Assembly (NCBI RefSeq): GCF_017352115.1
Contig: NZ_CP071448.1
Coordinates: 2,689,001-2,753,000, forward strand
Origin: Flavobacterium endoglycinae
GTDB taxonomy: Bacteria > Bacteroidota > Bacteroidia > Flavobacteriales > Flavobacteriaceae
DNA length: 64,000 nucleotides
Direction of reading: 5' to 3'
Below the pieces are notes generated by a model. It did not search any database. It had not been told where the DNA came from and saw nothing but the letters and a program-made list of their open reading frames with translations. Positions 24,085 to 48,640 of the stretch are shown here, piece after piece. A program made the translations under genes and the position numbers. The stretch's first letter is position 1. Every line of letters begins with the position of its first letter.

Positions 24085-24110
24085 AAACAAAGATGTGCCG
24101 TTAGGCACAT
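24085..24110 (-). terminator. Terminator of the 91-residue protein gene
   Basis: ATGTGCC (24093-24099) pairs with GGCACAT (24104-24110); on the minus strand it runs into CTTTGTTTTTTT. GTGCCGTTAGGCAC resembles the small hairpins of the repeat families and may have been recruited from one. Confidence 0.65.
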
Positions 24111-24159: not shown

Positions 24160-24435
24160 TTATGCGGCAAGCATTTTTTCGTAGGCATTTTTAATTTCAA
24201 TGTCCGAAAAAGGTTCAAGTGCTTCTACCAGTTTGCTAACGGTTTTAATGCAGTTGATCATTTTGATGCGGAGATCTTTATAATCTCCAACTTCTGTAAC
24301 CAGAATTGCTTCAAAAATTTCACACAAATGTTCCGGCTGATCCCTGATTTCGTCTTCAAACCAAATGTCTGATAGAAATTGTGCCATTGCTGTCATTACA
24401 GCGGATTCTGTTGGTTTTTGATTTTCTTTAGTCAT
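24160..24435 (-). CDS. Small protein of unknown function behind a structured leader RNA
   Basis: A 91-residue, all-helical, acidic soluble protein (TESAVMTAMAQFLSDIWFED, then INCIKTVSKLVEALEPFSDI). No signal peptide, membrane segment or known motif was recognised. It is a single-gene unit: a perfect -7 element lies ~157 nt upstream, the untranslated leader is strongly structured (24455-24587), and a terminator follows the gene. The reading frame on the opposite strand at 24154-24372 is a shadow. Function is unknown; the context, a small protein with a long structured leader, suggests tightly regulated expression. Confidence 0.75.
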   Translation of the reverse strand: MTKENQKPTESAVMTAMAQFLSDIWFEDEIRDQPEHLCEIFEAILVTEVGDYKDLRIKMINCIKTVSKLVEALEPFSDIEIKNAYEKMLAA

Positions 24436-24454
24436 AATCGAAAATTTAAACGCA

Positions 24455-24587
24455 CGAAACCCTCGCTTTAGGTGTGACTAAATATCCGAAGATAGATTTA
24501 GGGCAGTTTCCCGCTCCATCACCATAACAAGGGTTCGCTTATTGTTAACTTTGAATAAGTTTATTTAAAGTCATCAGATATTTAGTC
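24455..24587 (-). ncRNA. Candidate structured leader RNA (riboswitch-like)
   Basis: Reading the minus strand, 24537-24526 pairs with 24466-24455 (12 bp with one bulge; CGAACCCTTGTT with AGCGAGGGTTTCG). Inside, GGTG (24523-24520) can pair with CACC, enclosing two hairpins: GCGG-GAAA-CTGC (24514-24503) and TAAATCTATC-TTCG-GATATTTA (24500-24479, two-base bulge). Together they make a three-way junction with stable GAAA and UUCG tetraloops. In competition, GACTAAATATC at the transcript 5' end (24587-24577) is perfectly complementary to GATATTTAGTC (24486-24476), which would open the UUCG hairpin. The class was not recognised; not a hammerhead, TPP, SAM or cobalamin consensus. Confidence 0.55.
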
Positions 24588-24591
24588 GATA

Positions 24592-24599
24592 CAAACTTA
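24592..24599 (-). promoter_or_regulatory. -7 element of the structured leader
   Basis: Minus-strand TAAGTTTG, a perfect TAnnTTTG. The implied transcript start is about 24586, which is exactly the first base of the long-range helix. Confidence 0.6.
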
Positions 24600-45093: not shown

Positions 45094-45117
45094 TGTTTAA
45101 ACTAATTTTAATTGATT

Positions 45118-45543
45118 ATGATTGAATGGTACAAAAAAGTAGTTTTTGAAAACTATGCCAACTTTAAGGGACGTGCGAGAAGAAGTGAATATTGGTATTT
45201 TGCACTTGCCAGCAGTTTAATCTGTTTTGCATTAATGATTATAGGTTTAATTATTGGTGGTATTCTGGGTGATGCCCTTACAGGTGTATTTGTTGGATAT
45301 GGTCTTTTTCTTCTTTATTCTTTGGCTACATTAATTCCGTTATTAGCTGTTACAGTACGAAGAATGCATGATATTGGCAAAAGCGGCTGGTATTATTTTG
45401 TATCTTTTATTCCGCTTATTGGAGGAATCTGGGCGTTGATTTTATTATGCACAGAAGGAAACTACGGACCAAACCAATACGGATCTGATCCTAAAAACAA
45501 TGTTGAAGAAATCAATGAAATTGGAAAAGTTGAATTGCAATAA
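45118..45543 (+). CDS. DUF805 membrane protein
   Basis: A 141-residue protein of the DUF805 family: the N-terminal WYKKVVFENYANFKGRARRSEYW and the C-terminal RRMHDIGKSGWYYFVSFIPLIGGIW with GPNQYGSDPKN are the standard motifs, and about four membrane helices lie between. Function is unknown; some members sit near toxins or in phage-defence-like contexts. ATG 45118 is preferred to the TTG two codons upstream. It begins a cluster of DUF805-TM2-TM2-DUF805. Confidence 0.88.
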   Translation: MIEWYKKVVFENYANFKGRARRSEYWYFALASSLICFALMIIGLIIGGILGDALTGVFVGYGLFLLYSLATLIPLLAVTVRRMHDIGKSGWYYFVSFIPLIGGIWALILLCTEGNYGPNQYGSDPKNNVEEINEIGKVELQ

Positions 45544-46287: not shown

Positions 46288-46368
46288 CCACAACATAAAA
46301 TTTGAAGTGGCTAATATTGCACGTTTTTAAATTACAAATGGAGGAACTGAAAATCCATAAGAGTAGGG
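46288..46368 (+). ncRNA. DUF805-type leader RNA, copy 2
   Basis: CCAC (46288-46291) pairs with GTGG (46307-46310), then GGAGGAACTGAAAATCC and ATAAGAGTAGGG. The second half aligns with copy 1 at 45065-45093. Paired region and spacing differ in detail, which supports a conserved structure rather than a simple repeat. Confidence 0.5.
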
Positions 46369-46389
46369 AAATTTTTTAAAAGAGTTATT

Positions 46390-46755
46390 ATGTTAGAAAT
46401 GTACAAGAAAGTAGTTTTTGAAAACTATTTGAATTTTAAAGGAAGAGCAAGGAGAAGAGAATATTGGATGTTCTTTTTAGTGAACGTTATTATTTCTTTT
46501 GTTCTTGGGTTTATTGCGGGCTTAATTTCGCCTAGTCTGACTATAATTGGAAACATATATAGTTTAGCAGTCCTTATTCCTGGTATTGCAGTTGGAGTTC
46601 GTAGAATGCACGATATTGATAAAGAATGGTGGTATATAATAATACCATTTTATAATATTTATTTACTTACTATCGAAGGCGATAAAGGACCAAATCAATA
46701 CGGTGCAGATCCTAAAAACCAATTAGAAGATATTAGTGAAATTGGAAAAGAATAA
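46390..46755 (+). CDS. DUF805 membrane protein
   Basis: A 121-residue DUF805 protein with the motifs YKKVVFENYLNFKGRARRREYW and RRMHDIDKEWWYIIIPF and the closing GPNQYGADPKNQ. It is about half identical to the DUF805 protein at 45118-45543 in the motif regions, with a shorter middle. The gene has its own leader RNA and ends at a shared terminator with olsF. It closes the mirror-like DUF805-TM2-TM2-DUF805 cluster. Confidence 0.88.
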   Translation: MLEMYKKVVFENYLNFKGRARRREYWMFFLVNVIISFVLGFIAGLISPSLTIIGNIYSLAVLIPGIAVGVRRMHDIDKEWWYIIIPFYNIYLLTIEGDKGPNQYGADPKNQLEDISEIGKE

Positions 46756-46831: not shown

Positions 46832-48640
46832 TTAATCTTCTTTCTCAGATAATTTCTTTTCCAATTCAATCTGAAACTCTTCAATTACAGGTTTCATGGT
46901 GCTTTCAGGGATATCTGCAATTCTAATGTACATTAAACCGTCTATAGCATTATTGAACAATGGATCGACGTTAAAAGCTACTACACGCGCATTTTGCTTG
47001 ATGTACTTTTTGATTAAAACTGGCAAACGTAAATTTCCTGGTTCCAGTTCGTCGATGATTTTGTCAAACTTGTTAAGATCTGATTCTGCTTCATCGAAGA
47101 TAAAATCTTTGTCAGCGTCTTTTAGTTTTACTTTATAAGCTTTCTTCGGATGAATATATTGTGCAATATACGGATCGTAATAGTTTGATTTCATAAACTC
47201 AATCATCAGTGATTTAGAGAAATCAGAGAATTGATTACTGATACTTACACCTCCTACTAAATATTTATGTTCCGGATGACGCAAAGTAGTATGAATAATA
47301 CCTTTCCACAATAAAAATAAAGGCATTGGTTTCTGCTGGTATTCTTTTACGATAAAGGCACGTCCCATTTCGATCGATTTGTGCATCATATCGTGAAGTT
47401 CCGGTTCAAATCTGAAAAGATCGGTTAGATAGAAACCTTCAATTCCGTATTTCGGATAAATCTCAGAACCCAATCCCATACGATATGCTCCGGCAATCTT
47501 TTTGGTTTCATCATCCCATAAAAACATATGGTGATAATATTGGTCGTATTCATCTATATCAATAGATTCGTTGGTTCCTTCGCCCACTTCACGAAAAGTA
47601 ATTTCACGTAAACGTCCAATTTCATGTAAAATATTCGGAATCTCTTTTGCGCTCGCAAAGAAAACTTCATAGTTTTTACTTTGTAGAAATCTACTGTCGC
47701 TATTTCTTAAAGCCTGAACTTCATCAATTAATTTTGATTCATTTGCAGGCGTAACAATCTTTTTAGGTGCTTTTGTAATCTTAAGACTTGCGGTTGCGGT
47801 ATCAATCAATTTGGTATCCTTTTCAAAAGGATTGGCAAGCATATAGGTTTTCTTTCTTAAGAATTCTGAATATTCTTCAAAAGATTCGATTTCATTTTGT
47901 TCGTTAACCGAAATTGGTTTTCCAATACGGACTTTAATCACACGATCTTTCTGCGTTAAAAGCTCAGATGGTAATTTGGCAGTACGTAACGTATCATCAA
48001 TTTTAGAAAGCCAGTAGAATAATTTACTGTTTTTTGCATGAAAGTAAATAGGAACAACTGGTACTTTGGCTTTTCTGATTAGTTTTAAAGCGCCTTCTTC
48101 CCAAGGCTTATCGACTACTAATTTTCCATCTTTATAAGTCGAAACTTCCCCGGCAGGGAAAATTCCTAAAGGTTTTCCATCACTTAAATGACGTAACGTT
48201 TCCTTAATACCAATTACACTCGATTTAGCATCCTTGTGATTTTCAAAAGGATTAACCGGCATAATGTATTTTTTCATCGGAACAATTCTATGCAATAAGA
48301 AATTGGCAATGATTTTGAAATTTGGCTCTCTTTCAAGCATTAATTTCAATAGTAAAATTCCATCAATTCCTCCAAGCGGATGATTAGAAATAGTAATATA
48401 CGCACCATCTTTCGGCAGACGTTTTAAATCTTCTTCCGGTATTTCAAATTTGATTTCCATCTCATCCAAAATTCCGTTCAAAAACGCAAGATCTTCCAAA
48501 TGTTTATTGCGATCGTAAATTTTATTAAGGGTAGAGATCTTAAGAACCTTCATAAGAATCCAGCCAGAAAACGTACCGAAAACTCCGTACTTTTCAACAT
48601 TTATTGCTTTTGCAACTTCTTTCGCGGTAACTAAACCCAT
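46832..48640 (-). CDS. olsF: Bifunctional acyltransferase OlsF-type (amino-lipid synthesis)
   Basis: A 602-residue protein that joins two acyltransferase domains. N-terminal: an O-acyltransferase-like (PlsC-type) domain with NHPLGGIDG (His87-Asp93) and FPAGEVSTYKDG. C-terminal: a GNAT-type N-acyltransferase (OlsB-like, ~residues 310-490) with IGRLREITFREVGEGTNE and FYLTDLFRFEPELHD. OlsF, described for Flavobacterium johnsoniae and Serratia, makes ornithine (and related glycine) lipids by doing both acylations. The same two-domain order is seen here. Whether ornithine or glycine is the acceptor cannot be told. A perfect -7 element stands at 48672-48679. Confidence 0.85.
   Translation of the reverse strand: MGLVTAKEVAKAINVEKYGVFGTFSGWILMKVLKISTLNKIYDRNKHLEDLAFLNGILDEMEIKFEIPEEDLKRLPKDGAYITISNHPLGGIDGILLLKLMLEREPNFKIIANFLLHRIVPMKKYIMPVNPFENHKDAKSSVIGIKETLRHLSDGKPLGIFPAGEVSTYKDGKLVVDKPWEEGALKLIRKAKVPVVPIYFHAKNSKLFYWLSKIDDTLRTAKLPSELLTQKDRVIKVRIGKPISVNEQNEIESFEEYSEFLRKKTYMLANPFEKDTKLIDTATASLKITKAPKKIVTPANESKLIDEVQALRNSDSRFLQSKNYEVFFASAKEIPNILHEIGRLREITFREVGEGTNESIDIDEYDQYYHHMFLWDDETKKIAGAYRMGLGSEIYPKYGIEGFYLTDLFRFEPELHDMMHKSIEMGRAFIVKEYQQKPMPLFLLWKGIIHTTLRHPEHKYLVGGVSISNQFSDFSKSLMIEFMKSNYYDPYIAQYIHPKKAYKVKLKDADKDFIFDEAESDLNKFDKIIDELEPGNLRLPVLIKKYIKQNARVVAFNVDPLFNNAIDGLMYIRIADIPESTMKPVIEEFQIELEKKLSEKED

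Follow-up and report, generated by a model that had tools for sequence, protein, structure and literature searches.

The 91-amino-acid open reading frame (ORF) at 24160..24435 on the minus strand of this Flavobacterium endoglycinae DNA is preceded by a leader that, judged from sequence comparison, very probably contains a C4-type antisense RNA, which would be excised from its own leader or act within it and block translation of the ORF. A single key strand of this RNA matches both the presumed transcript start and the start codon, and the three copies of the key change together across genomes, which argues for a self-contained translational lock and not for a metabolite riboswitch. Positions refer to the window, that is, the whole stretch of 64,000 nucleotides analysed, and all leader features lie on its minus strand.

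Leader anatomy and Rfam identity

A perfect TAnnTTTG promoter element of the -7 type (TAAGTTTG, 24592..24599) is present where a sequence-only reading of this DNA had placed it; no clear -33 element was seen upstream of this box. From the box we infer that transcription starts at A (GACTAAATATC, 24577..24587), a 5'-end pairing site equivalent to a1/b1 of phage P1. A is exactly complementary to 24486-24476 (GATATTTAGTC), the 11-nt match described by the sequence-only reading, and the duplex is longer than described, extending to about 16 bp (-20.7 kcal/mol) through weaker pairing that continues to about 24571. The matched segment lies within the key strand B (GATATTTAGTCA, 24475..24486), which lies in the 3' arm of hairpin P3 and the junction and is equivalent to P1 a'/b'. 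A second partner of B, at the start codon, had been missed: 24482-24475 pairs over 8 bp with A' (TGACTAAA, 24427..24434), a target over the AUG and codons 2-3 that is equivalent to P1 a2/b2. In the window the A'-B duplex (-12.3 kcal/mol) is less stable than A-B. All three sites are also supported by covariation (see below).

The structured core (24455..24537) is defined by its fold and by covariation, with 13 pairs changed on both sides. It is the three-way junction that had been proposed, and both the GCGG-GAAA-CTGC hairpin and the UUCG hairpin with its two-nucleotide bulge were found; the closing stem P1 (24537-24527/24466-24455) has 11 bp, not the proposed 12, with U24459 bulged and two G-U pairs. 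The core further comprises stem P1b (24523-24520/24474-24471) and hairpins P2 (24517-24501) and P3 (24501-24478). The A-B helix and the UUCG hairpin are mutually exclusive, as had been argued, because A-B uses the 3' arm of that hairpin. The fold of the window leader beats 198 of 200 shuffles (z -2.88), and a UAUGGU motif (GGW) stands on the 5' side of the RNA at 24526-24521.

Scanning the window against Rfam with cmscan, a check that the sequence-only reading had called for, returned c4-2 RNA (RF02944) above its cut-off at 24457..24534 (78 nt, full model 1-79, 43.5 bits against a gathering threshold of 41), which corrects the earlier statement that the RNA class was not recognised. The window core is only just above the RF02944 cut-off, and RF01695 has no match in the window's whole genome at E <= 10; both count against a C4-type reading. 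Clan CL00128 joins RF02944 with RF01695 (C4 antisense RNA) and RF03163 (c4-a1b1, 'a1, b1 targets of C4 antisense RNA'), and this common clan suggests that c4-2 works like C4, though it is not filed under RF01695. A control scan detected both RF01695 and RF03163 in the phage P1 immI region (RF02945 is Corio-PBP and not c4-a1b1). In functional kind the window leader resembles C4: B is complementary to one upstream and one downstream site of the same transcript, and the downstream target overlaps the translation start of the small ORF. No antirepressor gene (ant) is present in the same operon, the next gene being an EamA transporter after a terminator-like site. In the window leader c4-2 alone reaches a cut-off, and no known riboswitch class is matched; the other weak match, to PhotoRC-I, is far below its own cut-off.

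Rfam types c4-2 as a free-standing sRNA gene, matched in sequence and structure over the whole model, whereas here it is a leader element whose partners A and A' lie outside the 79-nt model. Weinberg et al. 2017 is said to be the original description of c4-2, and part of the target logic may already stand there.

The window copy adjoins metG. Most class II relatives (classes are defined below) do likewise: 44 of the class II loci listed are next to metG, window included, some of them being the same species in two collections. This neighbourhood suggests vertical inheritance of the copy, alongside a changing key. The promoter is separated from metG by a terminator-like site, and another, a hairpin with a T tail found by consensus scan at 24093..24110, follows the ORF; the transcription unit is probably monocistronic. 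The same scan found no terminator between core and ORF in the window; a terminator at the core end had been considered and was dropped, class II having no T-run there.

The ORF was taken from the ORF list, and its family is conserved in Flavobacterium. Its product is predicted to be all-helical (model pLDDT 81, pTM 0.55). It has no usable match in Pfam, NCBIfam, PHROGs, PADLOC or PDB sequences, and Foldseek of the model against PDB and viral models gave a best E > 1. The protein is an ORFan, with no family, fold or phage relatives found in the searches made. Elsewhere in the window, a DUF805b cis-regulatory RNA (RF02914) was matched at 46338-46369 on the plus strand (35.8 bits, cut-off 35.6), directly upstream of a 121-aa ORF (46390-46755); this ORF is similar to a second membrane ORF, located at 45112-45543.

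Joint variation of the keys

The window genome has seven c4-2 copies, six of them above cut-off, and each of the seven precedes the ATG of a small ORF by about 20 nt. The ORF belongs to a 77-aa family in five cases (class I) and to a 91/94-aa family in the other two, of which the window copy is one (class II). In 7/7 copies, B (the apical part or 3' arm of P3) complements A near the transcript start and A' at the ORF start. Across Flavobacterium the module is chromosomal, with 1-8 copies per genome. We collected 109 RF02944 matches from a genus sample (25 of 121 genomes), a family sample (8 of 299), and phylum and order samples. Duplex energies with the leader's own partners are -17.5 kcal/mol for B with A and -14.6 kcal/mol for B with A', far outside those obtained with 5000 permutations of partners (-11.8 +/- 0.25 and -9.26 +/- 0.23, respectively).

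The two classes place the key differently. In class I it lies on the ribosome-binding site (RBS), roughly at positions -10 to -3 relative to the ATG. Both A and A' of this class also contain a largely invariant CCTA that pairs with TAGG in junction J3/1, and this additional pairing likewise varies jointly: leaders of the L005 type have CTTA and, correspondingly, TAAG. The class II key covers the AUG itself. Three divergent matches (G243, G404 and L106 of G262) have the key inside the coding region. Altogether, 48 distinct keys were counted among the 106 leaders that precede a gene and have a shared key of >=6 nt, and A, B and A' change jointly across these 48 keys and dozens of species. (Greedy clustering of the keys gave 13 clusters, was too coarse and was abandoned. 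An upstream ORF in A, suggested by an ATG after A in many class I leaders, is not general, several classes having no such ATG.) Of 107 pairs of leaders from the same genome, 3 have a key in common, whereas the rate in between-genome pairs matched for protein identity would give 11.3; this deficit, computed on related, non-independent pairs, fits selection against cross-talk and hence action in trans. In G063, near-identical paralogous proteins carry different keys.

Covariation was assessed in class II, initially on an alignment of 14 leaders. Pairs changed on both sides number 6 of 11 in A-B, 3 of 8 in B-A' and 13 of 29 in the core. The covariation score was reached by 0 of 500 shuffles in all three, and sliding by one column collapses the signal of each. 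The covariation among relatives that the sequence-only reading had asked for is present in its proposed stems (13 core pairs, 6 in A-B). A profile search of genome contigs then yielded 51 named class II loci, all from Flavobacterium or Flavobacteriaceae. A larger, gap-free set of 45 leaders (44 named loci plus the window) was aligned by anchors. Pairing reaches 92.6% for A-B (permuted maximum 79.3%) and 89.4% for A'-B (81.7%), and covariation 0.200 against a permuted maximum of 0.069 for A-B and 0.134 against 0.062 for A'-B; these permutations preserve column composition and ignore relatedness, against which the slid controls and the many different keys serve as safeguard.

In the 45 leaders the A'-B helix runs from the U of the AUG over 8 bases and then mostly ends. 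Codon 2 tracks the key (ACN, CAA or CTA; TCA in L148), so that the second residue of the protein appears to follow RNA pairing. In almost every class II leader with a core, a TAnnTTT(G/A) box stands 3-5 nt before A. Not all class II leaders with this architecture are RF02944 matches: at least ten lie outside them (L134, L137, L141, L144-L148, L154 and L155), and the Rfam model appears too narrow. With helices that covary and A placed 3-5 nt after the -7 box, the earlier proposal that the leader is conserved and structured, its mutually exclusive pairings directed at the translation start of the small ORF, has held up.

Natural variants serve as controls. RNA copies without a downstream gene (e.g. 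L022, L065, L068 and L098) have no key, and L086, which lies 3' of a class II gene, is likewise keyless. Conversely, the c4 core is cleanly absent from six leaders (L182, L184, L187, L195, L200 and L205) that keep promoter, A and linker, and the A/A' match is gone in five of these six.

Several side observations concern copy arrangement. L022, L065, L130 and L086 are extra c4-2 copies that lack A or A' and lie directly 3' of a controlled gene, in the order RNA - gene - RNA; they are possibly remnants of tandem duplication or trans-acting copies. Class II paralogs without a c4 leader (L149, L150, L151, L158, L159 and L160) adjoin a divergent gene for an XRE-type HTH regulator (MSTATKPKHIGRNISRIRELRGMKQEALA...), and these six have a different upstream region, common to them. 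In four class I variants (L005, L029, L069 and L071), inverted repeats TTCTTAA...TTAAGAA flank A, which could make A a hairpin loop that kisses the P3 loop.

Comparison with C4 and weighing of alternatives

In the P1 record AF234172, a1 (48255-48261), b1 (48269-48276), c4 (48343-48419), a2 (48423-48429), b2 (48452-48459) and icd (from 48470, 73 aa) are annotated. The complementarity was checked here: the identical a1 and a2 (TTGACAG) match one site in c4, and b1 and b2 match a second one; in c4 the b site precedes the a site, which is the class I order of P3-loop key then J3/1. The Flavobacterium module shares with P1/P7 C4 the succession of promoter, a1/b1, three-stem RNA of about 77 nt, a2/b2 at the translation start and small ORF, as well as the use of the P3 loop and junction J3/1 as pairing sites and the UAUGGU on the 5' side of the RNA. 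It differs in being chromosomal, in having no ant gene and in encoding proteins for which no phage relatives were found. Set against P1/P7, the variable key of class I corresponds to the RBS-proximal (b-like) loop, whereas class II uses one continuous strand on A and the last 8 nt of that strand on the AUG.

The P1 c4 RNA represses synthesis of the Ant proteins in trans (PMC8546580). It is reportedly processed by RNase P, which cleaves it at a GGW start, b' acting on the RBS and a' giving specificity (PMC5320573). The same study describes the A. baumannii Group 1 sRNAs, which are also multi-copy chromosomal C4-like RNAs with a varying specificity loop; the text consulted names no targets for them, whereas the target of the Flavobacterium RNA lies just downstream. 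The P4 CI RNA has a pairing partner on either side of itself, seqA upstream and seqC downstream (PMC4825925). P4 CI and Gifsy-1 IsrK resemble the present leaders in that the RNA pairs with sites on its own transcript and alternative structures control a downstream ORF, and differ in having other folds and in acting by termination (P4) or trans activation (IsrK) (PMC4825925). Separately, the P1 a1/b1 region (L163 231-312) scores 35.1 bits with Rfam isrK (cut-off 50), a hint that IsrK and C4 a1/b1 regions are related.

For the window we propose that the promoter would drive a short transcript consisting of A at its 5' end, the c4-2 RNA, the start codon with A' and the 91-aa ORF. Pairing of B with A' would cover the AUG and block translation (OFF), the presumed direction of control, and pairing of B with A would hold B off the start codon (ON) or, alternatively, A might titrate free RNA. 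By analogy with P1, the c4-2 RNA would probably be freed from part of the transcripts, excision and RNase P processing being presumed, and the freed RNA would repress the same mRNA in trans, the key providing specificity.

A somewhat unlikely alternative is a purely cis-acting switch, in which the c4-2 RNA always stays part of the transcript, B binds A during transcription, and a signal (a protein such as the ORF product, a ligand, or RNA decay that starts at the 5' end) releases B so that it can block the AUG. The placement of A at the presumed 5' end, where it is made first, the greater stability of A-B over A'-B in the window (-20.7 against -12.3 kcal/mol) and the conserved, covarying outer stem P1 all suit such a device, which would moreover yield the same A-B-A' covariation. 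It is set back by the trans action of P1 c4, a member of the same clan (PMC8546580), and it leaves unexplained why keys diverge between paralogs of one genome, including those of G063 with near-identical proteins. Pairing up- and downstream could also act as in P4 CI, whose RNA with seqA and seqC has the same layout (PMC4825925), by causing premature transcription termination instead of a translation block; we consider this distinctly improbable, given that A' sits on the RBS in class I or exactly on the AUG in class II and that the window has no terminator between core and ORF.

The ligand riboswitch of the sequence-only reading, in which a metabolite would bind the three-way junction and select between folds, can point to conserved junction motifs (UAUGG and CACCUAA) and to two exclusive folds. 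We find it unsupported and very unlikely: the RNA falls in an antisense RNA clan, the genes that follow it are ORFans, none of them metabolic or involved in transport, and the switching strand is the most variable part, with 48 freely changing keys, which a ligand pocket with one fixed expression platform would not predict. Barely credible is the notion that the triple repeat is a by-product of DNA duplication (a copied 5' UTR) that plays no part in RNA pairing. Shared flanks of A and A' (CCTAAA...TTATGA), such as a duplication would produce, do occur in class I, yet duplication cannot make B a reverse complement inside a conserved fold nor keep three sites in step over 48 keys; class II A and A' share only the bases paired with B, a slide of one base destroys the signal, and covariation already contradicts the idea.

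Implications for flavobacterial small proteins

The Rfam 'sRNA' c4-2 thereby gains a target and a logic, as almost all of the gene-bearing copies examined lie upstream of a small ORF whose start has a matching key. These results suggest that the mechanism of P1 C4 also occurs outside phages, in the form of a chromosomal regulator passed on by vertical descent. The 48 natural keys amount to an existing series of compensatory mutations for the study of antisense specificity, in which coordinated changes of the amino acid at codon 2 are included. We tentatively propose that Flavobacteria may hold families of orthogonal lock-and-key modules, in each of which an antisense RNA cut from the leader would silence a small protein and diverging keys would insulate paralogs. 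Icd of P1 is a growth-inhibiting protein, and by analogy the small proteins of such modules are possibly growth-inhibiting as well. Such an arrangement, if true, would amount to an antitoxin-in-the-leader system or else to domesticated phage immunity with heteroimmunity groups.
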